DNA of 64,000 nt from Watersipora subatra (Eukaryota; Bryozoa; Gymnolaemata; Cheilostomatida; Watersiporidae): positions 9,672,001 to 9,736,000 of the forward strand of contig NC_088708.1 of NCBI RefSeq assembly GCF_963576615.1, given 5' to 3'. Made by a program: the position numbers and the translations under genes. The notes under the pieces were generated by a model. It was not told the DNA's origin. It worked only from the letters and a program-made list of their open reading frames with translations, and searched no databases. Shown in pieces: positions 3,127 through 55,070 of the stretch. Position 1 is the first letter of the stretch, and each line of letters begins with the position of its first letter.

Positions 3127-3254
3127 GGCATAATTATGTAAAGGTACAAATGAACTGTTATTGGTGCAGCTGGCAGCTGGTACATTGCTCCCTTGTGACT
3201 TGCAACACGGCTAGTATAGTATAATTATGGCAACAATATATTTACACATACAAT
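3127..3254. repeat. Decayed partial copy of the unit start at the left edge of the array
   Basis: The order taattatgtaaaggtac, aatgaactgtta, acggctagtatag, gcaacaatatatttacac mirrors the block that begins again at about 3255 and the spacer blocks at about 13095, 24890, 33702 and 44806. It looks like an older, more diverged copy of the same segment and marks the left breakpoint of the array. Confidence 0.55.
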
Positions 3255-3484
3255 GAACTGTTGTTACTACAGTTGGCTGTACGTTGCTTTTTATGACTCC
3301 CAGCACCGCTAGTATAACATAGCAATAACAGTAATAGCAACAATAACAACAATGTATTTACATATACAAGAAAAAAACTTGAATGTACAATTCCTGCTCT
3401 AAGTAAACAGCAACTGTTGTGTTTAATAAAAAACAATACATATATGAATAAAATAATGGCTTTTCACTCGTACTACTCCATAAA

Positions 3485-6400
3485 CTATATTAGAGAAACT
3501 TTGAGACAATTTCCTGGTGGAAAGCATGTCTTGCGTGTAATTATCATTTGCCTTTTCTTGTTGGCCTCAAGCAACTCCTCGATTGGTATGTCATACTTAG
3601 GTAGAATTCTCACTCCTGGAACATTATATACATTGTAAATATATACACTTATTTGATTATATCAAGTGTCAAACTACTTGTTAGGTCTTTGTAATACAGA
3701 AACAGTTACAAGATTTGCATAACAACCTTGAAGGTTGACTTGCAACAAAATTCACATTACAGTTATTTGGTATCAAAAGATTCACCATGTCTTACTCTGT
3801 TGTGTTGTAGGTGCCAAATATGTGAAAATGTGATTACAAGCTCTTAAAGGCACAAAAACGAAAAGCCACCGTAGATTGGAATCTCTTTATTTCTCTGACG
3901 TAGCCATGAAATTTATTATTGTCTTATCACATGATGTTCTCACGTGAATTAAAAGGCTAATAAAAAGCTCAATATAAAACTTATCGTAGCACTAGTTTAT
4001 GACAAACACTTCGGGTTTTACCGAAGACTCCGTATCAAATATAGATACGCGCTACTTTACAGTTTTGTTTCGGTTTGGTCTAATCGGCAAGTCTTAATCT
4101 GATCATGTGACCCAATACTTCGCAAATAATTTCTGCAGCACTTTTCGGTTATCACAAGTGACCAACAAGCTCGTCATGATTATCAGACAAAGATATGTAC
4201 TCTTTTAAGCTAAGGCTAAAAAATTAGACGAATTTTTACGGTAAGTTATAGGATATCTATGCTAAAAGTGACAGCATTACAATGACGATAAAAAAGACAC
4301 GTAAGAACAATAGACATGGTTTTATTGAATGCGTGAAGTATATTTGTGAAAATATTTCGACGAATAAGGTTTCATGAAAGTGTAAACAGAAACCATCTAC
4401 CACAGCTACATCACATTTGGGCCGTTTTGGAAAGAGAATTCAAACTACGGCGGTCTCGTGTGGCTGCGATTAACTGTTCGTTTTTGAGCTTTTAAGAGCT
4501 TGTAATCACATTTCCACATATTTAGCACTTAAAACACAGCAGAGTAAGACATGGTGAATCTTTTGATACCAAATAACTGTAATGTGAATTTTGTTGCAAG
4601 TCAACCTTTAACATAGAACTTAGGTCACTTTTGTATCACTTGTTAAATCTTTTGTATCACTGAGCATTTGCGAAACTTTGAAGATTACCTATGGTACTTT
4701 TTTTGGTAACAACTCTATAGCCATGCTTTCTAAATGTTATTTAGCATCATTTTTGACAATATTTCTGGCTCTCAGCACTAGGTAGTAGTGTAATTGCCTT
4801 GTTATAGCTTTAAGTGAAAAGGAATGTATAAAAATACCAGAATCGAAGGATGGAGATGGAGCCATCCATTTGTACGGCTGGTAGTGCCATGGAGGTAAAT
4901 CGGAGAGAGAGTCGGAGGTGACAATTGATGCTCTAGTCTTATCAGATAAGATGGCTGGTGCGGAGTGAGCCACTGGCAAACATCGTTTCACAGGATAATT
5001 TATGGCTGGCGAAGAGCTAGTAGCAGGCTTTTCAATCGAGGTTGGTGTAGAGGTCGTCGGTAAGGAGGCCATTGTTAATGCTCGCTTTGGGGCAATCTCC
5101 GAACCTGTACTTGACACCTGGCAGTCATGTTGTACACAGCTATTAGATGTGAAGGAATTTCTGGTAGTTTGTTGTACTCTGGATGATGAGAAGATTTGAG
5201 TGGTTGAAACAGATGCAGTAGAATTGTGAAGAGGTGTTGATGGAAAAATCACATCATAGTTGATAATAATGGTCTCGACTATGTTTTTTTGTCTGTCCAA
5301 AACCTTTCTTAACTTAGATGGTTCTGTTGTGTTTTTCATCCTAGGTCAGGTGAAATTTATATTAGTCCACTATTCACAAGTGATGCATGGTAAAAGGCAG
5401 GTCATGTCAGTGAGATATTGATGCTATGGTTTTGAACAAACTTTTATGTAGAATTAACAATCTGAATATAATAAAAATAAAATATAATTTCTAAAAGGAA
5501 TTAAGCAATGAACTTGAATCAACTATACTAATAGCTAAGTCTACATTAAAACCTAAAATAGACATCATTGACCATATTTACAGTAACCAAATTGATGATG
5601 TAATCCAGTTGAAGTGAAAATTAGACACTTTTAGATTGACACCATTTTAGGCTCTGTGGAGCTGTGTAATAGTTAAATTATTCTAGGAGCAAACTTACTT
5701 TGACAAGTTAGGGCCCCAGACTACAGCCAGGTTGGACGCAGTCATTCCTGTTTCTTTGTGTTGAGCGGACAACCTTGCAAGGTGCCCAAATATATACTTT
5801 GCTGTTCTAAAAGTATATTTAATGATAGTTGAGTGACTAAGATAACAGAATAACATTTTTCTATCTATATTTAACCCTTTATATCACCAACAGCTACATA
5901 TATAAACGTATAGTATTCAGGAAGGTGTGTATGAAGATGAAAAAGGTAATACACAGCAAGTATAACATATTGATGATGTCGCTGAAGAAACATCAGGGAA
6001 TGTCAGGGACATTTATAATCATCGTTCTCATTGGTTAGTCAAACTAGGAAGGAGAGGGCAAGGTAGTTTACAGTATAGTATCTATTCAAGGACATCAGCC
6101 GCATAATAGGCTGTGCCAGTGGTTGGGAACTTTTTGTTGGACCATTTGTAAATGTTTGACTTTTAAACTCAAAGTTGTATACAATTCTAGAGTTATCTAC
6201 ACTCAAAGGCCAATACCCATTTAGATCTATAATACTCCAAGATGTTACTTTCATATTCCTATACACCCCAACCTAAAAGTGTCTATTTTGTAGACTATGG
6301 GTGGCTGGTGAACTGATTACCTGTAATATGATGATGGTAAATTCTCTATATAGTGCTTCAGCTCATCCAAGCCTCCCTCAACCTAAAAGTTTAACTAAAT

Positions 6401-9400
6401 TCATAATTTACTTATTTCCACTAGTCAATGAGGCTGAATGGACTAATCAACACTTGTTATCTATATAGACACTAGCTGTGCTACCCGGCAATGCCCGGGT
6501 AATAAAATAAGTCTTTGGACAGAAAATTGATTTGTATTCAATCTATAACAACATTTACCATTCAGACTTTCAAACTACATACCATGAGAGAAGGGTTTTG
6601 TGTAGTTGAAATGAATTAAGAGAGAAAATAAAACAACTGTAAAGCTTTTCAAACTTTTTCAAACAACTATAACTTTCAAACTTCATATCACGAGGAAAAG
6701 GTTAAAAATAAATAAAATAACCAAAGGTTTTCAAACGATGTAAATTTAAAATTTCATAACTTTCAGTGACATATCTTTTAATAACGTACAATGGAACCTC
6801 GGTTCTCGAACATAATCCGTTCCAGAAGGCTGTTCAAAACCAAGTTGTTCGAGTTCCGAAACAATTTTTCCATTAAAATAAAATTATGTAAATTTTAATC
6901 TGTTCCAAGGTGAGAAAACAACTTTGGTAAATTATTTTTTCAACATTTTACACCATAAGCTGTACTTGCTAAGCTTGTACTTGCTATTTTACACCATAAG
7001 CTGTACTTGTACCTGGGCGTTGCTCGGGTTTTAAAAAAGTCTTTGCACAGAAAATTTATTTGTATATAACATATATAACAACATTTGCCATTTTAACTTT
7101 CAAACTACATATCATGAGAAAAGTGTTTTGTGTAATTAAAATAATTTGAGAGAAAATAAAAACAACTGTAAAGTTTTTCAAACTGTGTCAAACAACTGTA
7201 ACTTTCCAACTTAATATCATGAGGAAAATGTTTTGTGCCGGTCAAATAAATTAAAAGAAATAAAACAATGGTAAAAGGGATTATTGTCTGCCAAAAATAG
7301 TTAAATAAAAAAATAATACTAATAATAAAGATTGGAAACCAATTAATTAATAATAACAGTGATAGGAAAATAATTAATGTTTAAACTTCAAACACGATAC
7401 TCAAATTATGTTTAAAAGAATGCAAATTGAAATAATAACGACGATGAAACAAACTTTAAAAAACTTATATTATAAACTTCAAAAGTTATAAGAAGTTTAT
7501 AAATGTAAAAAGAGAATGTAAATTTATATATCTATATATATATTTCTCAAAGTATGTAAATGTATGTAAATATAGGAGAGTGAGGAATAACTGATACTTG
7601 TAATCTTACACGATAGATTTTACCGTAATCTTACAAATGTTTGTTGTAAAATATGAAATTAATTATGAAAAACTAATTGGTTAGGTTTACAAGAAAAGAT
7701 GTGTAAGCTAATACATCTAGCTGTACAACCCGGCGTTGCTCGGGTAATAAAAAAGTCTGTGGACAGAAAATTGATTTGTATTTAACATATAACAGCATTT
7801 GCCATTCTACCGAAGAACAACTGTAAAGCTCTTCAAACTTTGTCAAACAACTTTTAAACTTCATATCATGAGAAAAATGTTTTGTGCAGGTCAAATAAAT
7901 TAAAAAAATAAAACTACCATAAAAAGGTTTAGATATATAAATGAAATAATTAGCAAGTAATAGCTAAATTGAGTCTGTTCTGCTATGATTACAATAAGAG
8001 ATGATTCGGCGATGATACAATTAATACGAACTGAGAAAACAAAATAAAAATTCTGAATATGTTGAATTAATAATATCAATTCTTGCATAGAAGTGTTTGT
8101 ATAAAAAAGTTACAGTTCCACCAACAGCTATCCATCAAAACTCTGAATACGACGATACTGGTACGACGATATGCAGAAATGAGAATTGTAGTGTCTTTTT
8201 CTGATCGAAGGTGAGAGAATCTAGATTCTTGAGGCTATTCCTACTCGAGATACATTAATACAATTCTCCGCGTGAAAAGTATTAACCTTTACGGCGATTT
8301 AGCAATTGAACGGAAAGCCAGAAATAGAGGTTCACAAAAACGCAAAAAAGGCATCGTGTTTCATAGAGTTAATAGAATTTAATCGCCAAACTCTAATATC
8401 GAGAGAGTCTATTGACGATATCGTTTTGCCAAAAACAAGTTAGCCCTACTACGGCAAGGACAAAAAAGCATCGCGCGTCATAGAGCTAAAAAATTCATAG
8501 AGTTGTAATTATTTTGTCATTTTGTGTGAAACCGGAAAACGATGAATAGGTAATGTATAGAGGCGCACTAACTGGAGATTCCGGTTAATGCGCCCTAGCG
8601 GCGGAAAAAAAAACTACAGAATAGCCACATCCTTATATAAGCCGCATGGCTTAAACCATCAGAAAAAAGTAACATCTAATAGTCCGAAAAGTACGTGCTC
8701 ACATTACTAATTCAGTTCGCTTCGTACAACGAAAAAAGGAAAGACTACTCAATAAAGTGGACAAACACGCACACACACAAATATACAGACAGATTTTTTG
8801 CCGTTTATATAGCAGATGTTTGTATGTTCAACCCTAGTTAGGAGCATAAACATACCGGTATATAACAATAACAACATCTACAGCAAATCAATACTAACTT
8901 GAGTGTAATAATAAAACGGTATTAATAATTAGACACCACCAATAAATATTATAATCAAACACTAACAATAAATATAGTATTGAAACACTAACAATAAATA
9001 TAGTAGTGAAACACTAACAATAAATATAGTAATGAAACACTAACAATAAATATGGTAATGAAACACTAACAATAAATATAGTAATAAAACACTAATAATA
9101 AATATAGTAACGAAACACTAATGATAAATATAATAATGAAACATTAACAATAAATATGGTAATAAAACACTAACAATAAATATAGTAACGAAACACTAAC
9201 AATAAATGTACATGTAATAATAAAACATTAACAATAAATATGGTAATAAAACACTAACAATAAATATAGTAATGAAACACTAACAATAAATATAAGAATG
9301 AAACACTAATAATAAATATAGTAATGAAACACTAATAATAAATATGGTAATGAAACACTAATAATAAATATAATAATGAAACATTAACAATAAATATGGT

Positions 9401-10292
9401 AATGTCTAACAACAAGTATAATAACTTAGATGGTAATCAGGTAGTCACTATGCTCAAAGAAGAGACTGTCAGAAACATTCTTTACATTTATGTCTTCAAC
9501 TTGTCCAAGTAAAGATGATGATAAATTCCTGAAATATTCTTTCAGAACTGCAGCAACGGTGTGCGGTTGTTCTCCCTTGAGGTCTACTGTTTCAGATGTC
9601 GATGAGAACTTTGACCTAGCAATAATCAGGTCACTATTAGTTCGGAGCAAGGATAATTGTAACTCATTTAGTAGTACTAAATCAGTTAGGTTATTTTGAT
9701 GTTCAGAAATACATTAGAAGCTGCATTACAGTTTCTCAAGGCTTATATTTTATTGAAATTACTGATGATAAAATAGCTGTAAATCTGAGTGGTAAAACTA
9801 TCTTTTTAGCTTGTGGCCCGAAGAGATGGAGTTTCAACAAGTTGTTGTTTCAATTTAACATTACAATGATGCATTTTATATGCCTTTCCAGGTCCTGAGG
9901 TGATGCTGGTCTGCAACTATTGTAAAGTTTTGCACTCACTTTAAACTTTGAATCTTGGCAGTTGCTGCAGATACCCTGTAAATCCCATGCACCATCCCAT
10001 ATTCTTCTATAGCACTGGCACAAGTTGTAACAATTTCTGGGACTACAAGGGAACTTAAGAATACAGCGTCATTCGTAAGGTGCGCTTTAACATCAATGGA
10101 TGAGCTAGTTCTGAAATAATATTTTATTAAAAGTAAAACAACTTCATAAAACATGCAGTAAAATCTTTAATATTTGACAAGGAAAAGGACACAACTCACC
10201 ATCTTCTGATGGTTTCGCAGAAAAAAGTGATTCGCTTGGGGTAGCCTTAATTTTATTTTTTCCAAAAAGCCTTAGGAACCACCGTCTCATCA
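3485..10292 (-). CDS. RhoGAP-domain protein, CdGAP/ARHGAP31-33-like, array copy 1 (type A)
   Basis: Predicted GTPase-activating protein for a Rho-family GTPase (Rac/Cdc42 by analogy with CdGAP). Exons in transcript order: 10200-10292, 9940-10042, 9486-9615, 6321-6382, 5699-5806, 4838-5340, 3485-3615. All have GT donors, AG acceptors and matching phases, ending at a TAG. The start is not settled. RhoGAP landmarks: VPEIVTTCASAIEEYG, the arginine-finger block GIYRVS, HTVAAVLKEYFRNL, ELKHYIENLPSSYYR, FGHLARLSAQHKETGM, NLAVVWGPNL, then IVETIIINYDVIF closing the domain. A Ser/Thr-rich tail of about 145 residues and a final exon (VRILPKYDIPIEELLEANKK) follow. The usual LPxPL motif after YFRNL reads LSSSLL. 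Candidate upstream exons in the same phase are 10421-10489 and 10332-10379. The tail and last exon of this copy differ most from the others. Confidence 0.8.
3732..4607. mobile_element. TTAA-target non-autonomous element with very long inverted repeats
   Basis: The element begins AGGTTGACTTGCAACAAAAT and ends with its inverse; the inverted repeats run for well over 100 bp. The right flank is TTAA (4608-4611) and the left ttga (3728-3731), a decayed TTAA. The empty site is visible in copies 2 to 5, which read caacctTTAAcatag or close variants here. It lies in the last intron of RhoGAP copy 1. A relative sits at 52889-53761. A TTAA target fits piggyBac or Kolobok families; no transposase is encoded. 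Confidence 0.8.
6472..8816 (-). mobile_element. Helitron, non-autonomous, in the intron of RhoGAP copy 1
   Basis: On the minus strand it starts TCTGCTATATAAACGGC and ends with the hairpin acccgggcattgccgggt a few bases before a terminal CTAG, the Helitron signature. It is inserted exactly between A and T: copy 4 has the empty site gtgacatgtttgtatg near 36279-36294, while here gaca is followed by the element and then tgtttgtatg. Two more 3'-end-like hairpins occur inside, near 7010 and 7732, so it looks composite. A block near 6789-6860 (tacaatggaacctcggttct) looks like a further nested repeat. No Rep/helicase is seen. Confidence 0.85.
8941..9412. repeat. 26-bp minisatellite, RhoGAP copy 1
   Basis: About 18 copies of a 26-bp AT-rich unit (core aaacactaacaataaatat) in the intron between the third and fourth core exons, just below the donor of the 9486-9615 exon. 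The same family occupies the same intron in all five units with very different copy numbers. Confidence 0.9.
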
Positions 10293-10331
10293 CTACAAAG
10301 AGCATTGACTTAGATGAAATATTGGCGTTAC

Positions 10332-10489
10332 CAGTATGTAGTTGATACGGAGGACAGACAGTAAGAAACTTGAAAAAGCCTGTAAACAGCAAACAGTTAT
10401 AAGGAATATGTACTGCTTACTAGTGAGGTTATGGCAGATAGCAGTTTGGTAAGCAGTGAAATAGTTCTCCAGAATGAAGAGAGCAGTCG
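10332..10489 (-). other. Tentative upstream coding exons of RhoGAP copy 1
   Basis: Two stretches with splice signals and matching phase: 10421-10489 (encodes TALFILENYFTAYQTAICHN) and 10332-10379 (FFKFLTVCPPYQLHT). Both start with two bases and end with one, as does the 10200-10292 exon. Equivalents: 21177-21245 and 21095-21142; 31181-31249 and 31096-31143; 40321-40389 and 40239-40286; 52202-52270 and 52117-52164. Against them: the second has a weak GTCACT donor in type B, and the AG acceptor is lost in copy 5. In type A the frame also stays open to an ATG ending near 10553; type B has a stop there. Confidence 0.4.
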
Positions 10490-10554
10490 CTGACCAGTTG
10501 CTTGTACAGGCAGTAGTTACAACGTGTGATGTCATCACTTCTTGATGAAACACT

Positions 10555-11325
10555 ATGATACACCAGCAGGTTGTTAAAGATAGCTACAGCACTGAAAGTT
10601 TGGTTCTCTATGGTTACTCAATAAGTCTAAGTGGTAATGTTAGAAGTCATCTCTTGGAAACCATCTCTTGGCTAAGATGCTTTCAGTTTTTATATCGTCT
10701 CAGCAGTATTCACAGAAGTATTCTAGAAGCCACATCTGCAGGATTATCTTTAGAATTGATTAAGTGCCATCAGTTTGAGTTGCTATCATTTTGGATTTTC
10801 TGGATGCGATTACTAACAAATGTATGAAATCTTCTTGCGTCTATTCTAATGTATCCCAATACAGCTTGCAAGTCTGACCAAAAATGTACTTCAAATTTTT
10901 TCAAATCCGCCTCTGAAGAATTTGATCACTTTGCCAGATAATACTGCTGCTGTTAGCTCCAATCTTGGTATTGTCAAAATTTTGCTGCTGGTACCTTGGA
11001 CTTGGCCATAATCAAACAACTGTGGATACTTTCTTCAGAGTCTTGAATCTTCTGATACAAACATTGACCAACTCCATCTAAGCTAGCATTAGAAAAGTTA
11101 TGTAGTTTGTATGATAAAGGATTGGTGCTTGCCTCTCCATGACCTATCCATTTGTTAACATCCAATTAATCCATGTGTTTTAGCTCCTCAACTGTTCTAG
11201 CCATTCCTTTTCCAACTCCTTTGACAATGGAGAATCTTAACCTTTGCCTTCCCTGCATACTCTTTGCAGAATACATTTTCCAACTAATGTGTACGGTAAG
11301 AGAAACTACTTTTATAGAACTACAA
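10555..11325 (-). mobile_element. BEL/Pao LTR-retrotransposon fossil, internal pol fragment
   Basis: Minus-strand remnants of a BEL/Pao polymerase region: an RNase H-like block (LHNFSNASLDGVGQCLYQK, then MAKSKVPAAKF) and, further on, WHLINSKDNPADVASR, the family's KDNPAD motif. No LTRs or other genes are present, so it is a broken internal fragment. It is shared with array copy 3 (31315-32085) and replaces the type B upstream DNA, so it predates the A-unit duplication. Confidence 0.7.
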
Positions 11326-11349
11326 GGTAGTTCTATTAATGTAGTTTTT
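11302..11349. repeat. Short palindrome at the edge of the BEL/Pao fragment
   Basis: About 21-24-bp arms (gaaactacttttatagaac against its inverse ending gtagtttttc) separated by three bases. The right arm is shared array sequence, also present in copies 4 and 5 near 42565 and 54740. The left arm is an inverted duplicate made at the junction. The same palindrome recurs at 32062-32109. Confidence 0.6.
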
Positions 11350-11661
11350 CTTTTGATTGTAGAGTTAATCAGTTTATATTAAAGGTTATTCCTCTATAGC
11401 ATTCATCATCTTGTCTCTTGTACAAATTACCAGAGAATTCAGCTGGATGACTTGTGCTTCTGAGCTGCTGTAGGTTTCACATCTTGCACACAGTGAGCAA
11501 GTGAAAGGCTTTTTTTGCAATGTTTCTTTGTTGACAAAAGACTTTGGTCTTGCCAGCCATGGTTACCCCTACATGTGTAATAGTCGCTTATCCTAATCAA
11601 GCAAAGTTCAACTCTAACTGCTATCACTTTGTGTCAGACTTGTGGCAGTATAGTATAATTG

Positions 11662-13361: not shown

Positions 13362-16300
13362 CTATATCAGGGAAACTTTGAGATAATATCCTGGTGGAAA
13401 GCACGCCTTTCGTATAATTATCATTTGTCTTCTCTTGATAGCCAGAAGCACTTCATCGATTGGTGTGTCATACTTGGGTAGAAATCTCACTCCTGGAACA
13501 TTATATACACATATTTATATATCAGGTGATATTTTAATTCAGTTGGCAGATTTACAGTGAAAACAAAAGTAAAAATTTGAAGCAGGCCAAGTGTCAAACT
13601 ATTTGTTAAGTCTTTGTAATACAGAAACAGATACACGATCCGCATAACAACCTTAACATAGAACTTAATTCACTCTTGTATCACTTGCTAAATCTTTTGT
13701 ATCATTGAATATTTGCAAATGTTTGTTATCAACTGATAGATTGACCTTGACCTATTTAGCATCTGTGACATTGTTCCTGGCTCTCAGCACTAGCTAGTGT
13801 AATTGCCCTGTTATAGATTTAAGTGAAAAGAAAGGTATATAAATACCAGAATCGAAGGATGGAGATGGAGGCGTCTCCTTGTACGGCTGGTAGTGCCATG
13901 GAGGTAACTCAGAGAGAGAGTCGGAGGTGGCAACAGATGCTCTAGTCTTATCAGATAAGACGGCTGGTGCGGAGCGAGCCACTGGCAAACATCGTTTCAC
14001 AGGATAACTTATTACTGGCGAAGAGCTAGTAGCAGGCTTTTCAATCGAGGTTAGTGTAGAGGTCGTTGGTAAGGAGGCCATTGTTAATGCTCGCTTTGGG
14101 GCAATTTCCGAACCTGTACTTGACACCTGGCAGTCATGTTGTACACAGTTATTGGATGTAATGGAATTTCTTGTAGTTTGTGGTACTCTGGATGGTGAAG
14201 AGATTTGAGCGGTTGAACCAGATGCAGTAGAGCTGTGAAGAGGTGTTGATGGAAAAATCACATCATAGTTGATAATAATGGTCTCGACTATGTCTTTTTG
14301 TCTGTCCAAAGCCTTTCTTAACTTAAATGGTTCTGCTGTGTCTTTTATCCTAGGTCAGGTGAAATTTATATTAGTCCACTATTCACCAGTGATGCATGGT
14401 AAAAGGCAGGTCATGCCAGTGAGATATTGATGCTATGATTTGTAACCAACTTTTATGTAGAGTTTACAATTGAACTAGAATAAAACTGTAATAGTAAAAA
14501 ACAGCCTTTCCAGTTTTGAGTTTCTCTCAATAAATTATGAGATATTTGCTAAGTATTTCACTATTATTCCCACAGCCCCTTAGCTGCCTGCTTATTCTTA
14601 ACTCGAGGTATGACGCCTTCTTTTATGTTTTGGTTAAATAAAAAAGGATCATACACACCAAAATGTCGCCAACAAATCAGCAAATATTTTTTTAGCATAC
14701 AACAAAAAAATAAAAGATTAATATCTAAAAAGAATTGAGTCATGATTTTGAATCAAATATACTAATAGCTAATTCTACATTAAAACGTAGAATAGACATT
14801 TACCATATTAACAGTGATCAGATTGATGATATAATCTAGTTGAAGTGGAAATTACTATGTCAGGCTCTGTGGAGCTGTGTTATAGCTAAATTCTTTTAGG
14901 AGCAAACTTACTTTGACAAGTTAGGGCCCCAGATTACAGCCAGGTTGGACGCAGTCATTCCTGTTTCTGTGTGTTGAGCGGACAGCCTTGCAAGGTGCCC
15001 AAATATATACTTTGCTGTTCTAAAAGTATATTTAATGATAGTTGAGTGACTAAGATAACAGAATAACATATTTCTATTTTTATTTAACCTTTATATCACA
15101 AACAGCTACATATATAAATATAATATTCAGGAAGGTGTGTATGAAGATGATAAAGGTAATACACAGCAAGTATAACATATTGATGATGTCACTGAGGGGA
15201 CTAGAAACCAGATAAGACATCAGGTGCATTTATAAGAATCAATTTTCATTGGTCTGTCCATTAGCCAGTAAGGAGTAGGCAAGGTAAGTTATACAGTAGT
15301 ATACTATCTCTTCAAGGACAGCCACTACTTCATGTGCTAGTGGTTTGGAACTTTTCCATTTGGCCAAATTGAAATTTTTGATCTTTAAACCCAACACATA
15401 GTTGTATACAATTCTGGAGTTGTCTACACTCAAAGAGCAATTCCCATCTAGATCTATAATACCCCAAGATGTTACTTTCATATTCCTACAACCCAACCTA
15501 AAAGTGTCTATCTTGTAGACTATGGGTGGCTAGTGAACTGACTACCTGTAATATGATGATGGTAGGTTCTCTATATAGTGCTTCAGCTCGTCCAAGCCTC
15601 CCTCAACCTAAAAGTTTAACTAAATTTATAAATTACTTATTTCCACTAGTCAATGAGGCTGAATGAACTAGTCAACACTTGTTATCTCTATATACATGTA
15701 CATGTTTGTATGTTCAACCCTAGTTGGAAGCATAAAAATATATAACAATAACAACATCTACAGCAAATCAATACTAACTTGAGTGTAATAATAAAACGGT
15801 ATTAATGATTAGACACCACCAATAAATATTATAATCAAACACTAACAATAAATATAGTAGTGGAACATTAACAATAAATATAGTAATGAAACACTAACAA
15901 TAAATATAGTAATAAAACACTAACAATAAATATAGTAGTGAAACACTAACAATAAATATAGTAATGAAACACTAACAATAAATATAGTAATAAAACACTA
16001 ACAATAAATATAGTAGTGAAACACTAACAATAAATATAGTAATGAAACACTAACAATAAATATAGTAATGAAACACTAACAATAAATATAGTAATAAAAC
16101 ACTAACAATAAATATAGTAATGAAACACTGACAATACATATAGTAGTGAAACACTAACAATAAATATAGTAATGAAACACTAATAATAAATATAGTAATG
16201 AAACACTAACAATAAATATAGTAATGAAACACTAACAATAAATATAGTAATGAAACACTAACAATAAATATAGTAGTGGAACATTAACAATAAATATAGT

Positions 16301-19300
16301 AATGAAAGACTAACAATAAATATAGTAATGAAACACTAACAATAAATATAAGAATGAAACACTAACAATAACTATAGCAATGAAACACTAACAATAAATA
16401 TAGTAGTGGAACATTAACAATAAATATAGTAATGAAACACTAACAATAAATATAGTAATAAAACATTAACAATAAATATAGTAATGAAACACTAACAATA
16501 AATATAGTAGTGGAACATTAACAATAAATATAGTAATGAAAGACTAACAATAAATATAGTAATGAAAGACTAACAATAAATATAGCAATGAAACACTAAC
16601 AATAAATATAGTAATGAAACACTAACAATAAATATAGTAATAAAACATTAACAATAAATATAGTAGTGAAACACTAACAATAAATATAGTAATAAAACAC
16701 TAACAATAAATATAGTAGTGAAACACTAACAATAAATATAGTAATGAAACACTAACAATAAATATAGTAATAAAACACTAACAATAAATATAGTAGTGAA
16801 ACACTAACAATAAATATAGTAATAAAACATTAACAATAAATATAGTAATAAAACACTAACAATAAATATAGTAGTGAAACACTAACAATAAATATAGTAA
16901 TGAAACACTAACAATAAATATAGTAATAAAACACTAACAATAAATATAGTAGTGAAACACTAACAATAAATATAGTAATGAAACACTAACAATAAATATA
17001 GTAATAAAACACTAACAATAAATATAGTAGTGAAACACTAACAATAAATATAGTAATGAAACACTAACAATAAATATAGTAATAAAACACTAACAATAAA
17101 TATAGTAGTGAAACACTAACAATAAATATAGTAATCAAACACTAACAATAAATATAGTAATAAAACATTAACAATAAATATAGTAATGAAACACTAACAA
17201 TAACTATAGTAATAAAACATTAACAATAAATATAGTAAGGAAACACTAACAATAAATATAGTAGTGAAACACTAACAATAAATATAGTAATGAAACACTA
17301 ATAATAAATATAGTAAGGAAACACTAATAATAAATATAGTAAGGAAACACTAATAATAAATATAGTAATGAAACACTAACAATAAATATAGTAGTGAAAC
17401 ACTAACAATAAATATAGTAATGAAACACTAACAATAAATATAGTAATGAAACACTAACAATAACTATAGCAATGAAACACTAACAATAAATATAGTAGTG
17501 AAACACTAACAATAAATATAGTAATGAAACACTAACAATAAATATAGTAATGAAACACTAACAATAAATATAGTAATGAAACACTAACAATAAATATAGT
17601 AATGAAACACTAACAATAAATATAGTAATGAAACATTAACAGTAAATATAGTAATGAAACACTAACAATAAATATAGTAATGAAACACTAATAATAAATA
17701 TAGTAATGAAACACTAACAATAAATATAGTAATGAAACACTAACAATAAATATAGTAATGAAACACTAACAATAAATATAGTAGTGGAACATTAACAATA
17801 AATATAGTAATGAAAGACTAACAATAAATATAGTAATGAAACACTAACAATAAATATAAGAATGAAACACTAACAATAACTATAGCAATGAAACACTAAC
17901 AATAAATATAGTAGTGGAACATTAACAATAAATATAGTAATGAAACACTAACAATAAATATAGTAATAAAACATTAACAATAAATATAGTAATGAAACAC
18001 TAACAATAAATATAGTAGTGGAACATTAACAATAAATATAGTAATGAAAGACTAACAATAAATATAGTAATGAAAGACTAACAATAAATATAGCAATGAA
18101 ACACTAACAATAAATATAGTAATGAAACACTAACAATAAATATAGTAATAAAACATTAACAATAAATATAGTAGTGAAACACTAACAATAAATATAGTAA
18201 TAAAACACTAACAATAAATATAGTAGTGAAACACTAACAATAAATATAGTAATGAAACACTAACAATAAATATAGTAATAAAACACTAACAATAAATATA
18301 GTAGTGAAACACTAACAATAAATATAGTAATAAAACATTAACAATAAATATAGTAATAAAACACTAACAATAAATATAGTAGTGAAACACTAACAATAAA
18401 TATAGTAATGAAACACTAACAATAAATATAGTAATAAAACACTAACAATAAATATAGTAGTGAAACACTAACAATAAATATAGTAATGAAACACTAACAA
18501 TAAATATAGTAATAAAACACTAACAATAAATATAGTAGTGAAACACTAACAATAAATATAGTAATGAAACACTAACAATAAATATAGTAATAAAACACTA
18601 ACAATAAATATAGTAGTGAAACACTAACAATAAATATAGTAATCAAACACTAACAATAAATATAGTAATAAAACATTAACAATAAATATAGTAATGAAAC
18701 ACTAACAATAACTATAGTAATAAAACATTAACAATAAATATAGTAAGGAAACACTAACAATAAATATAGTAGTGAAACACTAACAATAAATATAGTAATG
18801 AAACACTAATAATAAATATAGTAAGGAAACACTAATAATAAATATAGTAAGGAAACACTAATAATAAATATAGTAATGAAACACTAACAATAAATATAGT
18901 AGTGAAACACTAACAATAAATATAGTAATGAAACACTAACAATAAATATAGTAATGAAACACTAACAATAACTATAGCAATGAAACACTAACAATAAATA
19001 TAGTAGTGAAACACTAACAATAAATATAGTAATGAAACACTAACAATAAATATAGTAATGAAACACTAACAATAAATATAGTAATGAAACACTAACAATA
19101 AATATAGTAATGAAACACTAACAATAAATATAGTAATGAAACACTAACAATAAATATAGTAATGAAACACTAACAATAAATATAGTAGTGAAACACTAAC
19201 AATAAATATAGTAATGAAACACTAACAATAAATATAGCAATGAAACACTAACAATAAATATAGTAATGAAACACTAATAATAAATATAGTAATGAAACAC

Positions 19301-21051: not shown

Positions 21052-21245
21052 CTACAAAGAGCATGTTTTGACCCTGATCAAATATCAGAGTGACCAGTAT
21101 GTAGTTGATACGGAGGACAGACAGTAAGAAACTTGAAAAAGGCTGTGAACAGCAAGTAGTAAGGAATAGTGCTTACTAGTGAGGTTATGGCAGATAGCAG
21201 TTTGGTAAGCAGTGAAATAGTTCTCCAGAATGAAGAGAGCAGTCG

Positions 21246-31056: not shown

Positions 31057-31314
31057 CTACAAAGAGCATTGACTTAGATGAAATATTGGCGTTACCAGTA
31101 TGTAGTTGATACGGAGGACAGACAGTAAGAAACTTGAAAAAGGCTGTAAACAGCAAATAGTTATAAAGACTAGTGCTTACTAGTGAGGTTATGGCAGATA
31201 GCAGTTTGGTAAGCAGTGAAATAGTTCTCCTGAATAAAGTGAGCAGTCGCTGACCAGTTGCTTGCACAGGCAGTAGTTACAATGTGTGATGTCATCACTT
31301 CTTGATGAAACACT

Positions 31315-32085: not shown

Positions 32086-32421
32086 GGTAGTTCTATTAAT
32101 GTAGTTTTTCTTTTGATTGTAGAGTTAATCAGTTTATATTAAAGGTTATTCCTCTATAGCATTCATCATCTTGTCTCTTGTACAAATTACCAGAGAATTC
32201 AGCTGGATGACTTGTGCTTCTGAGCTGCTGTAGGTTTCACATCTTGCACACAGTGAGCAAGTGAAAGGCTTTTTTTGCAATGTTTCTTTGTTGACAAAAG
32301 ACTTTGGTCTTGCCAGCCATGGTTACCCCTACATGTGTAATAGTCGCTTATCCTAATCAAGCAAAGTTCAACTCTAACTGCTATCACTTTGTGTCAGACT
32401 TGTGGCAGTATAGTATAATTG

Positions 32422-39900: not shown

Positions 39901-40195
39901 CCATGCACCATCCCATGTTCTTCAATAGCACTGGTACAGGTTTTAACAACTTCTGGGACTACAAAAGGTTTTAATATACAAGATTATCCTTGAGGTATGT
40001 TTTAACATCAGTGGGTTCTAAAATTACATTTTATTATAGATGAGAAAATTTTATACAACGGTCAAATTGGTGATGCATTATGAAAAGAAGTGCACAACTC
40101 ACCATCTTCTGAGGGTTTCACAGCAAAAAGTGATTCGTTCGGGGTAGCCTTAGTTGTATTTTTTCCAAAAAGCCTTAGGAACCACTGTCTTATCA
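33965..40195 (-). CDS. RhoGAP-domain protein, CdGAP/ARHGAP31-33-like, array copy 4 (type B)
   Basis: Exons in transcript order: 40103-40195, 39856-39958, 38754-38883, 36132-36193, 35498-35605, 34433-34935, 33965-34095. Same lengths and phases as the others, no internal stops. Distinctive residues: PEVVKTCTSAIEEHG and GIYRVSTAVSKVHSLR, showing that even the domain exons differ among copies. The tail has AVLSDKTRASVATSDSLSEL and PPWHYQPYKETPPSPSFDSG. Tentative upstream exons 40321-40389 and 40239-40286. No Helitron; the undisturbed Helitron target is at about 36279-36294. Confidence 0.8.
36401..38666. repeat. 26-bp minisatellite, copy 4
   Basis: About 87 units. A five-unit (130-bp) pattern of variants recurs between about 37540 and 38170, separate from the 58-unit pattern of copy 2, so the two arrays expanded independently. 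Confidence 0.9.
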
Positions 40196-40389
40196 CTACA
40201 AAGGGCATGTTTTGACCCTGATCAAATATCAGAGTGACCAGTATGTAGTTGATACGGAGGACAGACAGTAAGAAACTTGAAAAAGGCTGTGAACAGCAAG
40301 TAGTAAGGAATAGTGCTTACTAGTGAGGTTATGGCAGATAGCAGTTTGGTAAGCAGTGAAATAGTTCTCCAGAATGAAGAGAGCAGTCG

Positions 40390-42918: not shown

Positions 42919-43075
42919 TATACTAACTGAGTAGTCACAATATACTAAAAGAGTAGTGACTGTATACTAACGGAGTAGTAACTGTATACTAACAGAGTAG
43001 TGACTGTATACTAACTTAATAGTGACTGTATACTAACAGAGATGTAATTGTATACCGACGAGCAGTAACTATATG
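42919..43075. repeat. 22-bp minisatellite, spacer after copy 4
   Basis: About seven units of the tatactaacagagtagtgac family. Confidence 0.8.
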
Positions 43076-45062: not shown

Positions 45063-48000
45063 CTATATCAGGGAAACTTTGAGATAATATCCTGGTGGAA
45101 AGCAAGCCTTGCGTATAATTATCATTTGTCTTCTCTTGATAGCCAGAAGCGCTTCATCGATTGGTGTGTCATACTTGGGTAGAAATCTCACTCCTGGAAC
45201 ATTATATACATGTATTTATATAGCAGGTAATATTTTAATTCTGTTGACAGATTTATAGAGAAAACAAAAGTAAAAATTTGAAACAGGCCAAGTGTCAAAC
45301 TACTTGTTAAGTCTTTGTAATACAGAAACAGATACACGATCCGCATAACAACTTTAACATAGAACATAGGTCACTCTTGTATCACTTGTTAAATCTTTTG
45401 TATCATCGAACATTTGCAAATGTTTGTTATCAACTGATAGATTGACCTTGACCTATTTAGCATCTGTGACATTGTTCCTGGCTCTCAGCACTAGCTAGTG
45501 TAATTGCCCTGTTATAGATTTAAGTGAAAAGAAAGGTATATAAATACCAGAATCGAAGGATGGAGATGGAGGTGTCTCCTTGTACGGCTGGTAGTGCCAT
45601 GGAGGTAACTCGGAGAGAGAGTCGGAGGTGGCAACAGATGCTCTAGTCTTATCAGATAAGACGGCTGGTGTGGAGTGAGCCACTGGCAAACACCGTTTCA
45701 CAGAATAACTTATTACTGGCGAAGAGCTAGTAGCAGGCTTTTCAATCGAGGTTGGTGTTGAAGTCGTCGGTGAGAAGGCCATTGTTAATGCTCGCTTTGG
45801 GGCAATCTCCGAACCTGTACTTGACACCTGGCAGTCATGTTGTACACAGTTATTGGATGTAATGGAATTTCTGGTAGTTGGTGGTACTCTGGATGATGAA
45901 GAGATTCGAGCGGTTGAAACGGATGCAGTAGAATTTTGAAGAGGTGTTGATGGAAAGATCACATCATAGTTGATAATAATGGTCTCGACTATGTCTTTTT
46001 GTCTGTCCAAAGCCTTTCTTAACTTAGATGGTTCTGTTGTGTTTTTCATCCTAGATCAGGTGAAATTTGTATTAGTCCACTATTCACAAGTGATGCATGG
46101 TAAAAGGCAGGTCATGCCAGTGAGATATTGATGCTATGATTTGTAACCAACTTTTATGTAGAGTTTACAATTGAACTAGAATAAAACTGTAATAGTAAAG
46201 AACGGCCTTTCCAGTTTTGAGTTTTTCTCAATAAATTATGAGATATTTGCTACGTATTTCACTATTATTCCCACAGCCCCTTAGCTGCCTGCTTATTCTT
46301 AACTTGAGGTATGACGCCATCTTTTATGTTTTGGTTAAATAAAAAAGGATCAAACACCTCAAAATGTCCCCAACAAATCAGCAAATATTTTTGTAGCATA
46401 TATAAAAAAATAAAAAAATATATAATTTCTAAAAGGAATTAAGCAATAAACGTGAATCAACTATACTAATAGCTAAGTCTACATTAAAGTGTAGAATAGA
46501 CATTCACCATATTTGCAGTGATCAAATTGATGATGTAATCCAGTTGAAGTGAAAATTACCATTTCAGGCTCTGTGGAGTTTTGTTATAGCTAAATTCTTC
46601 TAGGAGCAAACTTACTTTGACAAGTTAGGGCCCCAGACTACAGCCAGGTTGGACGCAGTCATTCCTGTTTCTTTGTGTTGAGCAGACAGCCTTGCAAGGT
46701 GCCCAAATATATACTTTGCTGTTCTGAAAGTATATTTAATGATAGTTGAGTGACTAAGATAACAGAATAACATATTTCTATCTTTATTTAACCTTTATAT
46801 CACCAACAGCTACATATATAAACGTATGGTATTCAGGAAGGTGTGTATGAAGATGATAAAGGTAATGCACAGCAAGTATAACATATTGATGATGTCACTG
46901 AGGGAACTAGAAACCAGATAAGGAATTATGGACGGTTGGGGGACAGTCAATAGGGCGACAGACACTTAGGCGACACTTTCGGTTCGAAAGGCGACAACTT
47001 CAGACGGAAGGGCGATATAGCGGACAAACAGGCGACAATTCTGGACATTGAGGCAACAATTCTGAGGGCAGGATTGATTCAAAATATTAAGTCCTGTTAT
47101 GTTGTTGTGAATTAGTAGTGAACACTAACAAGACGCCAACTTTATTGATGCCCAGATCGGAATTCTTGCATTAGTCTTGGCATCTATTACCTGCTTATAT
47201 CCTCATTAATCCGATTACATTATTCTTTTACACACAGTAGAATTTCATATTGTATTATTGAATGTACCCAATATTTATTTAATTGAGATGGTTATTATTA
47301 AAAAAAATGCTGAGATTAATCTGTCTTTAATCGCCCAACTATTCTTCTGTTCATCCTTTTCCACAAATTTAACTCTAGAGTCTGTCAACTCCACACACTC
47401 AGAAGTCATTTAGCCAGTCACTATTTTCTTTTTCACATCCTTCCTTCCTTGAATGCTTGGAAAAACTGGCAAGTTGCTTATCAGTGTGGCAAGAGTCTGA
47501 GATTCTTTACCGCCTAATTTATAACATCATAGAGGTACCAACTTTTATAACCCCTTTGTAGCGATGCATTCTTGAGTCACTAGCATACCGCTGTTGATGA
47601 GTCATTATACTATCTTTGGCTCATGTATCATGTATTAGGATCCTCAGTAGTAGCTCTCAAAGTAATGTATATTCTTGTTCTGATTGCAGTATGAAAATAA
47701 ATACATACATATGAGTTTAGCTTGATACATTTTAATAAATTTGCTTTTTGGTAGATTTATACAAATAGTAAAGCTGATTTTTATCATATATAACTTTCAA
47801 AAATACGTATATCAATAGTTTGCAGCATTAATTTTTTTTACAATGCCTTTATTCTGATTGATACTATGTAGATAAACCCATCTAACGATAGAACTTCTCT
47901 TTCCTATCTAGAATGACGAGATCAGGTTCACGGTTATAAATTGGCAACTGAATATTACTTTCTGCTAATTCTAAAACTTAAATGAAAAGATAATTTGAAT

Positions 48001-51000
48001 TACAGGAGTATAATTATACCCAGTGACTCGCAGGTACTCGAATGCACTTGCACTTCCAATCATACACAAAAATAATTGCAGGAAATTCCCTACACCACTA
48101 TTTAATAAAGTTGTTATTAAAGTTCAAGCCAATGGCTGTCTATGTAATATCTTCCCATCTTTTTTGAAGTCTGTCCTTTGTTAAAATAGTCATGTATAAA
48201 AAAGATTCACAGTGCGTGTTAAAATGCAAAATATAGTACATGATGTGGCACGTGGCAGCATTAACCTGCAACTGAGTATATATCACAAAGGTCATTGAGG
48301 TGTTGATCACTCCTCATTATCTCAAACTACAGGTTGTGTGTGCCATCGGGATCTGTGACAAGAGTAATTCGGTCAAATATCTCAAGTGACTCTAAAGGTA
48401 ACATGGCATCAGGACCGGTTAATTTCTATGCTTTGGAATGGATCATTTCTCCATAAGCTTTCTGTGATGCTGTTTAGTCTTCTTGCAACAAGCTGCAGAA
48501 GTTAGTAAAATATGGATATATCTTAGACACCTATGTCAGAAAAATCCTTCATTCTTCATACTCAAATAAAATCGCGACAAACATACATCAGTGTGAACCG
48601 CCTATTGAGTCTGCATTATAATGACATTGAATTATTATCATAATTGTAAAGAAACAAGGATAAGGAAATCATTATTTCCACAAGTGAATGAGAAATCACA
48701 ATAATAGGGAATTGTCTTTTCATCTCACACAAAGAGCAAACTTCTCCCAGCTACTGTGAATTTCGACGATCGAAACCATAAAACTATTTCTTCTCGAGGT
48801 AAGATAACTCTAAAATTTCAACAATCGGAGACAAGATTGTCGACATTTTAGCCGAGAACGTGACTTTTCGAACAGTTTTGAACAAACATTCTGATACAAA
48901 AACAAGTTTTGGTGTTTTAATTGAATAAGCTAGATGCATTTTTAGAAACAAAACCTTAATATTTTGTTAATTGTCTGGGCTAGCATAATCAGAGAAATCT
49001 CACCAATGGCGTTTAAAAATACATGTTGCATTTTCGATTTATAAAAAAGTCTGTAAAAAACAATAACACTGTCAAGGCTACGTTTCAAAAATATACGTAA
49101 GCATTGCACACGATGACAGCTTGTCATAGCTTGTCAGTACATTACCTCGCCTTCAACCAAACAGCAAATTTGTCGCCTTTCAGTCTGGAATTGTCGCCGG
49201 TTTGTCTGCCGTGTCGCCTTTCCGTCTGAAGTTGTCGCCTTTCAAACCAAAAGTGTCGCCTAAGTGTCTGTCGCCCTAGTGACTGTCGCCCAAAAGTCCA
49301 GTTACCCAGATAAGACATCAGGTACATGTATAAGAATCAATTCTCATTGGTCTGTCCATTAACCAGTAAGGAGTAGGCAAGGTAAGTTATAGTATACTAT
49401 CTCTTCAAGGACAGCCACTACTTCATGTGCTAGTGGTTTGGAACTTTTTCATTTGGCCAAATTGAAATTTTTGATCTTTAAACCCAACATATAGTTTACA
49501 TGTTGGTTATAACCCATATTCTTCATAGTTGTATACAATTCTGGAGTTGTCTACACTCAAAGACCGATACCCATTTAGATTTATAATACGCCCTAAGATG
49601 ACGATGTTACTTTCATCTTCCTACACCCCAACCTAAAAGTGTCTATCTTGTAGACTATGGGTGACTAGTGAACTGATACCTGTAATATGATGATGGTAGG
49701 TTCTCTATATAGTGCTTCAGCTCCTCCAAGCCTCCCTCAACCTAAAAGTTTAACTAAATTTATAAATTACTCATTTCCACTAGTCAATGAGGCTGAAGGA
49801 ACTAGTAAACACTTGTTATCTTTATATACATGTTTGTATGTTCAACCCTAGTTAGGAGCATAAACATATAAAAAAATAACAACATCTACAGCAAATCAAT
49901 ACTAACTTGAGTGTAATTATAAAATGGTATTTATGATTAGACACCAATAAATATTATAATCAAACATCAACAATAAGTATAATAACAAAACACTAGCAAT
50001 GACATAATAATGAAACGCTAACAATAATTATAGTAATGAGACACTAACAATAAATATAATAATAAAACACTAATAAAAAATATAATAGTGAAACAATGAC
50101 AATAAATATAAAAATAAAACACTAACAATAAACATAATAATGAAACACTAACAATAAATATAGTAATGAAACATTAACAATAAATATAGTGATGAAACAC
50201 TAACAATAAATATAGTGATGAAACACTAACAATAAATATAGCAATGAAACACTAACAATAAATATAGTAATGAAACACTAACAATAAATATAGTAATTAA
50301 ACACTAATAATAAATATAGTAATGAAACATTAACAATAAATATAGTAATGAAACACTAACAATAAATATAGAAATAAAACACTAACAATAAATATAGAAA
50401 TAAAACATCAATAATATATAGTAATGAAACACTAACAATAAATATAGTAATGAAAGACTAACAATAAGTATAATAATGACACACTAACAATAAATATAGT
50501 AATAAAACACTAATAATAAATATAGTAATGAAACATTAACAATAAATATGGTAATTACTAACAACAAGTATAATAACTTAGATGGTAATCAGGTAGTCAC
50601 TCAGCTCAAAGAATAGATTGTCGAAAACATTCCTTACATTTATGTCTTCAACTTGTCCAAGTAAAGATGATGATAAATTCCTGAAATATTCTTTCAGAAT
50701 GGCAGCAATGGTGTGCGGTTGTTCTTCGTTGAGATCTACTGTTTCAGATGTCGATGAGAACTTTGACCTACCAATAATCAGGTCATTAATAGCTCGCAAG
50801 GAAAACAGTTGTATCACAGTTAGTGGTAATGAAACACATTGACTTTTATTACTACTAATGCTATGTATATCTAAAAGCTTAAATAAATTACGTCTTAAAT
50901 TGCATTATAATTTTATTAATCGCTACTAAATTATGCATGAAACAAGTTTGTTAGATCCGCATTATACTTGCAGACAAACTATAAAAAACATTGTATTACA

Positions 51001-52077
51001 GTTACAGTTAGCGCACTAATATAATTATGTTTAGGCAAAGAAAACAAAATCAATTCTTATCAAAAATTTTAACTTTTCTCAAAAGCTTTTCACCTTCATT
51101 TAAGAACTTTTATTCTAAAAAAGTTGCCACTGTTTTTTGTCAACTTGAGAAATACTCAAGCAAGTTTAAAAGATTGTACTTTTCTTGTTTGAGAATTTGG
51201 ACTGACGGTCTTAATCTTAGAGTAATTTACATACAGGTAATTCCATATAGTATATCTTCAACTAGAGTTAGTTTTTAAGAATTGTAATGAGTCCATTTAC
51301 CAGTTTTTTGCAACTATTATTTCCTTTATAATACTGTAAACAAAATGGATCAGAATCTTCACCTGTATTTTCCTTGATCTAATGCCGGGTCAAAACACCT
51401 GCTATTAAAATACGCTGACTCTCAACTCACTCTCAACGCTCTAGAATTAATGTACGGACTACTGCTTGCTATTAAATTTAGATACAGGTTGTTGTGCTGT
51501 TCAGAAATACAATAGGATCTGCTATACAGCTTCTCAAGGCTTATATTTTATTGAAACTATTGATGATAAAATAGCCATAAATCTGAGTGGTAAAACTATC
51601 TTTTTAGCATGCGGCCCGAAGAGATGGGATTTTAACAAGTTGCTGTTACAATTTATCATTACAATGATGCATTTTATATGCCTTTCCAAGTCCCGAGCTG
51701 ATGCTAGACTGCAACTATTGTAAAGTTTTGTACTCACCTTAGACTGTGAACCTTGGAAGCGGCCGAAGATATCCTGTAAATTCCATGCACCATCCCATAT
51801 TCTTCAATAGCACTAGCACAGGTTCTAACTAATTCTGGGACTACAAAAAGTTGCAGTATACAAGATTATCCTTGAGGTATGTTTTAACATCAGAGGGTTC
51901 TAAAATTATATTTTATTATAGATGAGAAAATGTTATAAAACAGTCAAATTGATGATGCATTATAAAAAGAAGTGCACAACTCACCATCTACTGAGGGTTT
52001 CGCAGCAACAAGTGATTCGCTCGGGGTAGACTTAGTTGTATTTCTTCCAAAAAGCCTTAGGAACCACTGTCTTATCA
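45063..52077 (-). CDS. RhoGAP-domain protein, CdGAP/ARHGAP31-33-like, array copy 5 (type B)
   Basis: Exons in transcript order: 51985-52077, 51738-51840, 50638-50767, 49680-49741, 46616-46723, 45548-46050, 45063-45193. Lengths and phases equal the other copies and frames are open. First core exon has FLRLFGRNTTKSTPSES and KPSVD; domain PELVRTCASAIEEYG and GIYRISSAASKVHSLR. The donor of the 62-nt exon is GTATCA rather than GTAATC. A 2.4-kb transposon (46923-49305) lies in the following intron. The candidate upstream exon at 52117-52164 has lost its AG acceptor (AT), so the 5' structure may be altered in this copy. Confidence 0.75.
46923..49305. mobile_element. Long-TIR transposon with 9-bp target duplication, copy 5 only
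   Basis: Terminal inverted repeats of roughly 120-150 bp contain many copies of ggcgaca (for example agggcgacagacacttaggc at both ends). The target ccagataag is duplicated at 46914-46922 and 49306-49314; copies 2 and 4 show the empty site gaaaccagataagacatc, with one substitution in copy 4. A 9-bp duplication with long repeats suggests a Mutator-like or foldback element. The 2 kb interior shows no transposase that I recognise. Confidence 0.8.
49945..50551. repeat. 26-bp minisatellite, copy 5
   Basis: About 23 units, more diverged than in copies 2 and 4, which suggests less recent homogenisation. Confidence 0.85.
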
Positions 52078-52270
52078 CTACAAAGAGCATTAACATTAAT
52101 GAAATATCAAAGTGACCAGTATGTAGTTGATACGGAAGACAGACAGTAAGAAACTTGAAAAAGGATGTAAACAGCAAGTAGTTATAAGGAATAGTGCTTA
52201 CTAGTGAGGTTATGACAGATAGCAGTTTGGTAAGCAGTGAAATAGTTCTCCTGAATAAAGAGAGCAGTCG

Positions 52271-54023: not shown

Positions 54024-54113
54024 AAGACAACACTCATCATAATTGGTTGAGTAAAAACAACACTCATTATAATTGGTTGAGTAAAGACAACACTCATTAT
54101 AATTGGTTGAGTA
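54024..54113. repeat. 30-bp minisatellite, three copies
   Basis: Three units of the repeat at 22121-22300. Confidence 0.85.
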
Positions 54114-55070
54114 ATTCTATAAATTACATTGTAATTGCAGATCGAGTTCTTTAACAATAATATAAATTATATCAGTCGTTGAATATGAAATCACTCTTTA
54201 GTTTTGGAAAATAATTATTCGTAAATAAATCTTTATAAATAAAATAAATATTTAATACACATTTAACATGAAGATTTAACAATTAGTTTTATCAAAGTTG
54301 TCTCCTCTGTAGATGCATGGGTAAACAACTTCTCTGCTGTGAAAAAGTTCACCCGATAATATTTATCCTTGGATGAAAATTTAATATTGGGTTAGTCATG
54401 CATTGTTGTTTTTGTGTTCATTTACCTGCTGTCCTATTTTCTTCCCAGTGTGTAGCAGTATTATTGGGAGTAGCAGTTTTAAAGGCAGTGAAAATTACCA
54501 TTTAGCAGTTATTTTTTGTTTTATAAATCAACTCAGTTGCATGCGACTCATGAAAAACTAAAAGTATTTTTATTATATAATTATATGTATCTGTAAGTTA
54601 ACACGCTAGGCTCTAGCGTTACGAGGAGTATGTGCTAATGCTATATCTTGATGCTTGGAAACCATCCCTCGGCTACGATGTTTTCAGTTTTTTTGACAGA
54701 CTAGGAAATGTTCTGAGCTCTCAACTCCTTCAACCAGGTAGTTCTATAAAAGTAGTTTTTCTTCTGATTTTAGAGGTAATCAGTTTATATTAAGGGTTAG
54801 TTCTCTATAGCATTCATCATCTTGTCTCTTGTACAAATTACCAGAGAATTCAGCTGGCTGACTTGTGCTTCTGAGCTGCTGTAGGTTTCACATCTTGCAC
54901 ACAGTGAGCTGGTGAAAGGCTTTCTTTCCAATTGGTATAATGCAGTGTTTTGTGTTGACAAAGCACTTTGGTCACCATGGTTACCCTCACATGTGTAATA
55001 GTGGCTTATCCTAATCAAGCAAAGTTCAACTCTAATAACTGATATCACTTTGTGTCAGACTTGTGGCATA
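54114..55070. other. Right end of the RhoGAP array
   Basis: Array sequence continues to cagacttgtggca at about 55068, after which similarity to the other units stops, just where they begin the 22-bp minisatellite. A minus-strand open frame at 54797-55048 (YYTCEGNHG, KPFTSSLCARC) is broken or shifted in the other units; I do not call it a gene. Confidence 0.6.

Follow-up and report, generated by a model that had tools for sequence, protein, structure and literature searches.

The genome of the bryozoan Watersipora subatra (783,720,542 bases, 239 contigs) carries a RhoGAP gene in five neighboring copies on contig 1. We studied a window of 64,000 nucleotides (NC_088708.1, 9,672,001-9,736,000). 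This window is the whole stretch of DNA that was analyzed, and positions given without a contig or chromosome are counted from its first base. All copies lie on the minus strand, in the order A-B-A-B-B. Their sequences indicate that the tandem array is real and that its five small RhoGAP genes are apparently functional, most likely amplified by unequal exchange. We consider the genes apparently functional because all five have open frames with their splice sites and match the Pfam RhoGAP profile (PF00620). Likewise, the A1 and B1 coding sequences align without gaps, the ratio of non-synonymous to synonymous substitution rates (dN/dS) is 0.15-0.17 against a relative on the same chromosome, and the exon boundaries are shared with relatives. 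The genome report (PMC12902671) describes the species as a cheilostome bryozoan, with assembly GCA_963576615.1.

The self-comparison of the window, a check that the original prediction had proposed as a dot-plot, shows the repeats. More precisely, long repeats join the five segments. We built the gene models exon by exon, from the minus-strand frames kept across copies and the aligned splice sites. The plan is the same in every copy. It consists of a non-coding leader exon (E0) and seven coding exons (E1-E7), with GT/AG splice sites. The joined frame has 376 codons, and it is open and equal in length in the five copies. A five-copy tandem array of a seven-exon, minus-strand gene had been predicted, and both the self-comparison and the exon models bear it out. 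The models are the following.

Copy A1, 3485..10421, minus strand: E0 end 10421; E1 10292-10200, E2 10042-9940, E3 9615-9486, E4 6382-6321, E5 5806-5699, E6 5340-4838, E7 3615-3485; open 376-codon frame, GT/AG sites, PF00620.
Copy B1, 13362..21177, minus strand: E0 end 21177; E1 21051-20959, E2 20814-20712, E3 19739-19610, E4 15607-15546, E5 15019-14912, E6 14349-13847, E7 13492-13362; gene model and PF00620.
Copy A2 (A/B hybrid), 25148..31181, minus strand: E0 end 31181; E1 31056-30964, E2 30806-30704, E3 30379-30250, E4 27176-27115, E5 26595-26488, E6 26135-25633, E7 25278-25148; gene model and PF00620.
Copy B2, 33965..40321, minus strand: E0 end 40321; E1 40195-40103, E2 39958-39856, E3 38883-38754, E4 36193-36132, E5 35605-35498, E6 34935-34433, E7 34095-33965; gene model and PF00620.
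Copy B3, 45063..52202, minus strand: E0 end 52202; E1 52077-51985, E2 51840-51738, E3 50767-50638, E4 49741-49680, E5 46723-46616, E6 46050-45548, E7 45193-45063; gene model and PF00620.

The 10 kb flanking the window on either side (L050, L051) gave no exon match at E < 0.5, so the array ends within the window.

The start codon appears to be split. It would be formed across the E0/E1 junction (CACTA/TG, the slash marking the splice), where E0 ends in CACTA before GT and exon 1 starts with TG after AG. This arrangement is present in the five copies and, by eye, in the chromosome 1 relative at 26.09 Mb and one chromosome 3 unit, both described below. We placed the start here because these genes share the TG after AG and an upstream exon ending in A before GT. 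A start at MLFVV, inside exon 1, was dropped; the chromosome 1 relative has no ATG there. The first models used that start and are four codons longer. They served for residue numbering, the Pfam and structure matches, the genome search and the pairwise dN/dS values. The leader exon belongs to a conserved block.

Conserved 5' block of A1, 10421..10545, minus strand: leader exon E0 (last base 10421) and the motif TGATGACATCA at 10537.

The other four copies have an equivalent block, with the last base of E0 at 21177, 31181, 40321 and 52202. The motif begins 116-119 bases upstream of that base in all five, and a regulatory role for it is a guess on our part. The block of B1 is 83% identical over 168 bp to that of the chromosome 1 relative.

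The RhoGAP profile, searched at E up to 1, matches all five joined proteins (best E 1.4e-30), as the check on the joined exons required. A1 scores 106.6 bits (curated cut-off 24.5) over profile positions 1-145 of 148. A separate whole-genome RhoGAP scan found one C-terminal exon match per window copy. Coverage of the profile in A1 is end to end, but with internal shortening. Its core has 134 residues, compared with 145 in two genes of this genome with a full-length domain (L046 and L049). The shortening falls mainly behind the 'LL' of LP.PLL, where eight to nine residues are missing; a few others are lost ahead of 'PHT'. A short loop after exon 3 seems a simpler reading than a missed micro-exon. 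We dropped the micro-exon since the chromosome 1 relative and the chromosome 3 units allow the same join, and the borders match in the two full-length-domain genes. An exon 2 acceptor further upstream was also dropped. That site puts the B copies out of frame; TTGTAG/T gives the correct phase in all copies.

The residues R58, K95, N159 and N167 (numbering of the first models) are invariant in the five proteins. They align to GIYR, CKLYFREL and NLAIVWAPN of RICS, and we take them to be the catalytic positions of RhoGAP domains (arginine finger, conserved Lys and Asn). Each protein keeps the GIYR arginine finger, the helix LK..FR and the N..(V/I)WGPN asparagines, and is therefore predicted from family knowledge to be a Rac/Cdc42-type GTPase-activating protein (GAP). 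The best solved-structure match of the array profile, out of 34, is RICS/ARHGAP32 (3iug, 5.8e-23), followed by ARHGAP15 and ARHGAP12. The alignment to RICS continues past the domain, to residue 203. After it, the C-terminal tail is short and rich in S, T and P, and the proteins end in exon 7. Other Pfam domains gave a single match among the window proteins, in one member, at E 0.14. CdGAP and RICS have a long C-terminal tail, and ARHGAP32 and ARHGAP33 also carry PX and SH3 domains. The long tail, a trait of the CdGAP/RICS/ARHGAP33 group, is absent from the 376-codon proteins. For this reason we file the array gene as a derived relative of the group and not as CdGAP itself. The gene had been called a CdGAP-like RhoGAP. 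A RhoGAP of the CdGAP/RICS kind stands. CdGAP in particular does not, as the proteins are short (376 aa) and the structure comparison, with neither CdGAP nor ARHGAP33 among its 34 matches, does not separate CdGAP, RICS (ARHGAP32) and ARHGAP33.

The family is larger than the window array, with at least 24 shortened RhoGAP gene copies apparent in the genome. Searched in six frames with the B1 protein, it gave at least 101 matches, all on C1, C3 and C4 (108 of 128 candidates scored). The weakest, at C1 3.297 Mb with 27% identity, is a different RhoGAP. An intact relative lies at C1 26.086-26.096 Mb (L039/L040). It has a frame of 385 codons, a matching leader exon, seven coding exons and the shortened domain. 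A second exon 7 is found about 5.9 kb further on, along with two fragments in the region, and one complete copy was found. A stop-bearing fragment is located at 26.036 Mb of chromosome 1, and the 5-kb stretch after the relative holds no convincing exon. On chromosome 3, the whole-genome RhoGAP scan finds 18 copies, by their C-terminal exon, in two opposed blocks.

Chromosome 3 block 1, about 49.730-49.811 Mb, minus strand: 11 copies, C-terminal exon at 49.731-49.808 Mb.
Chromosome 3 block 2, about 50.298-50.344 Mb, plus strand: 7 copies, C-terminal exon at 50.301-50.343 Mb.

The blocks are about 0.5 Mb apart, and a partial unit (L054) is present besides. Copies are spaced by about 7.0 kb, save one interval of 14.1 kb. 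That interval contains a GC-rich insert of 7.1 kb between two genes, with long frames that look gag-pol-like by eye (L042:1039-8124, C3 about 49.742-49.749 Mb). Our reading of chromosome 3 covers 6 of the 18 units (b2 to exon 6 only) and very little of the spacer between blocks. Four of the six have no obvious defect, b7 among them with an earlier end in exon 7. Of the other two, one is interrupted by a stop in exon 6, and the second has a broken acceptor at exon 7. The exon boundaries of the window genes are shared by the chromosome 1 relative and the chromosome 3 units read.

The two genes with a full-length domain are at C1 25.57 Mb (L046) and C4 65.06 Mb (L049). We read their RhoGAP exons alone, with exon joins of our own reading, and their exon 2-5 borders match those of the array genes. 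They match RICS at 6.8e-41 and 1.1e-46, and the next solved relative at 1.7e-28 and 1.4e-28. Since they are nearest to RICS and share these borders, the array family belongs with the CdGAP/RICS group or derives from it. In a table covering nine of 14 sequences, the RhoGAP core of the window copies is 73-75% identical to the C1 relative, 60-63% to the chromosome 3 units and 41-44% to the full-length genes. The tree unites the shortened genes in one group with a support of 100. The inner nodes are weak, with 64 for the window copies plus the C1 relative and 60 for the five window copies.

The A and B types differ in their introns, as predicted. Between A1 and B1, intron 1 differs by 31% and introns 4 and 5 by about 13% (12.5-31% overall), and intron 2 measures 324 bp in one and 972 bp in the other. 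In the coding sequence, the six A-B pairs differ at 26-28 of 209 bases in exons 1-2, and at 10-14 of 300 in exons 3-5. This contrast, concentrated at the 5' end, is in keeping with 5' ends that stayed separate and later exons that underwent gene conversion.

Copy A2 joins the two types. It is A-like from the upstream DNA into exon 6, with 96.7-100% identity to A1 (300-bp bins, 26,100-32,400, minisatellite excluded). It becomes B-like midway through exon 6 and stays so in exon 7 and the 3' flank, according to both sliding identity and informative sites.

A2 switch point in exon 6, 25986..25996 (near 25,990): boundary of a crossover or conversion, with A-type sequence 5' of it and B-type sequence 3' of it.

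A2 is A-like at 29 of 34 informative sites on the 5' side and at 1 of 47 on the 3' side, and none of 10,000 permutations was as extreme. Thus, of the proposed alternation of A and B, the typing holds for the 5' half of the genes. A simple alternation is lost, with A2 an A/B hybrid.

The introns also tell which copies are closest. They are 0.6-2.1% apart in A1-A2, 0.3-3.2% in B1-B2 and 4.8-8.0% in B1-B3 (introns of unequal length skipped). The original prediction, in which an A-B dimer of some 20 kb was duplicated and one extra B added, agrees with A1-A2 and B1-B2 as the closest pairs and B1-B3 as a more distant one. We infer that the array grew by unequal crossing over. The ancestor would have been an A-B-B array. 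Its first gene (A) could have mispaired with the last B, and one unequal crossover inside exon 6 would then give A-B-(A/B hybrid)-B-B in a single step. Such a crossover predicts that A1/A2 and B1/B2 are the youngest pairs, as seen. The hallmarks of unequal crossing over are present: head-to-tail copies and a chimeric copy with a homologous breakpoint. Gene conversion with the same boundary may alternatively have produced the switch in A2.

Selection was estimated at two time scales. Against the chromosome 1 relative, the window copies have the low dN/dS already given, with a synonymous rate (dS) of about 1 (exons 1-5). In these comparisons, long-term selection is purifying. A1 and B1 differ at 93 of 1,143 bases (first models), and no gap occurs in 1,131 coding bases. 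In three of their introns, which can be aligned, 985 bases contain 16 gap events; this count omits two introns whose lengths are over 400 bases apart, as well as intron 3 with its minisatellite. At this rate, the absence of coding gaps has a Poisson P of 1e-8. Within the array, an excess of synonymous changes is nominally significant in four of the five pairs tested, out of ten (P < 0.012, counts rounded).

Several points weigh against this account of the array. The RhoGAP domain is shortened, as described above, and the GAP activity of the proteins is predicted. Within the array, dN/dS over the whole coding sequence reaches 0.47-0.82 in the ten pairs, and the synonymous excess of B1-B3 is weak (P 0.066). 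These values suggest that some copies may be under relaxed constraint. In the RhoGAP half, B1-B2, B1-B3 and B2-B3 have a dN/dS of 1.3-2.2, from small counts. For A1 against the B copies, the exon 1 ratio is about 1.0-1.3. For the 3' part of A2, finally, B3 is no clearly closer match than B1. Its exon 7 has 1 difference from B1 and 4 from B3, and its exon 6 has 16 from B3 and 23 from B1. These distances conflict as to the B donor.

If the assembler had set haplotypes in tandem, some copies would be alleles. The intron divergences of A1-A2 and B1-B2 are compatible with alleles. Moreover, the genome report gives a k-mer completeness of 69.65% for the primary assembly, a sign of high heterozygosity, and mentions manual correction of 46 haplotypic duplications (PMC12902671). 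On the other hand, the window sequence contains no N, and three B copies exceed two haplotypes. The B1-B3 and A1-B1 introns differ far more than those pairs. B3 alone has an intron 4 of 2,956 bp with an inserted element, the minisatellite of intron 3 ranges from 17 to 143 units, and the hybrid A2 is the product expected from unequal exchange. We therefore find an assembly artefact very improbable. A decaying array, in which unequal crossing over left neutral copies that do not encode functional proteins, is also improbable. The high dN/dS within the array, the two damaged chromosome 3 units out of six and the stop-bearing fragment at 26.036 Mb would agree with it. Against this stand the five open window copies, with all their splice sites and no coding indel, the synonymous excess in most tested pairs and the strong long-term constraint.

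The copies could have diversified toward different GTPases, a proposal that we find doubtful, though worth some weight. Exons 1-2 hold the arginine finger and the following loop, and it is there that A and B differ most. The exon 1 ratios point the same way, and so does exon 2 of B1-B2, with 7.5 non-synonymous and 1.5 synonymous changes. However, GIYR is invariant, A1 and the B copies have an exon 2 dN/dS of 0.29-0.58, and the counts are small. Intron 1 is as diverged as noted above, so the contrast could equally well stem from later exons being converted. We considered positive selection in exons 1-2 and dropped it, with too few changes in exon 1 and an A1-B exon 2 ratio below 1. Functional RhoGAP genes amplified by unequal exchange thus remain our preferred reading, and the effect of the copies is probably one of extra dosage and differing expression.

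Repeats and mobile elements are frequent in and near the array.

26-bp minisatellite in intron 3 of all five genes: A1 8926-9404 (18.2 units); B1 15813-19529 (143); A2 29716-30168 (17.2); B2 36393-38673 (88); B3 49945-50555 (23.6).
BEL/Pao retrotransposon relic upstream of A1, 10977..11165, minus strand: PF05380 Peptidase_A17, E 2.3e-8.

The DNA neighboring the BEL/Pao relic is repeated upstream of other copies, according to the self-comparison. The insert in intron 4 of B3 (46929-49300, about 2.4 kb) is DNA transposon-like, with terminal inverted repeats of 109-131 bp that are 85-86% alike. Another element of 0.88 kb, probably mobile, is found at 3728-4611 (intron 6 of A1) and 52885-53765 (upstream of B3), with 92% identity. 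At 558-2074, on the minus strand, frames resemble a hAT/ZBED-type transposase by eye, and one of the four has a sub-threshold Pfam DUF4371 match. Outside the gene array, a 31-bp tandem repeat has 18 units at 60628-61189. No Rfam family reached the threshold in the window. Across the genome, profiles for COX1 (PF00115), cuticle proteins (PF00379) and haemocyanin (PF14830) had 0 matches; the COX1 profile matched 8 of 14 control genomes, but the other two matched none of the controls, so that their zeros do not indicate absence.

Tandem expansion of a gene family is in itself a common kind of event. The array is a clear case of exchange creating a chimeric gene within an exon. Likewise, the family offers a test of what happens when a Rho regulator is amplified repeatedly, in dosage, expression or conflict. 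No paper with both 'bryozoan' and 'RhoGAP' was found in the literature searched, which omits most subscription journals, and the family appears undescribed there. Among the other papers listed, judged by title and opening of the abstract, none but the genome report was relevant to the family. A wider picture, speculative and of low probability, is that the stripped-down copies came from a CdGAP/RICS-type ancestor and were amplified separately on two chromosomes. Conversion would hold the later catalytic exons close to one another, and the 5' ends and first exons would diverge. This could reflect an arms race (germline conflict, colony recognition or defence).

Tagap1, a GTPase-activating protein, is named among the driving genes of the mouse t haplotype (PMC9863905). 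It serves as an analogy only, based on the kind of domain; drive and germline expression of the window genes would be speculation. Closer comparisons lie in the RICS/ARHGAP32 group (with CdGAP/ARHGAP31 and ARHGAP33) and in the genome itself. The window genes resemble that group in the RhoGAP domain and in the aligned stretch after it. In contrast, they are 376 aa long, with a short tail, a 134-residue core and tandem amplification. The chromosome 1 gene at 26.09 Mb has the same leader exon, seven coding exons and shortened domain, but is one complete copy of 385 codons. Finally, the chromosome 3 arrays share the exon plan, the split start codon (in one unit), the shortened domain and the tandem arrangement, with a period of about 7.0 kb. 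They differ in having 18 copies on opposite strands (11 + 7), a RhoGAP core 60-63% identical to that of the window array, and damage in two of the six units read.

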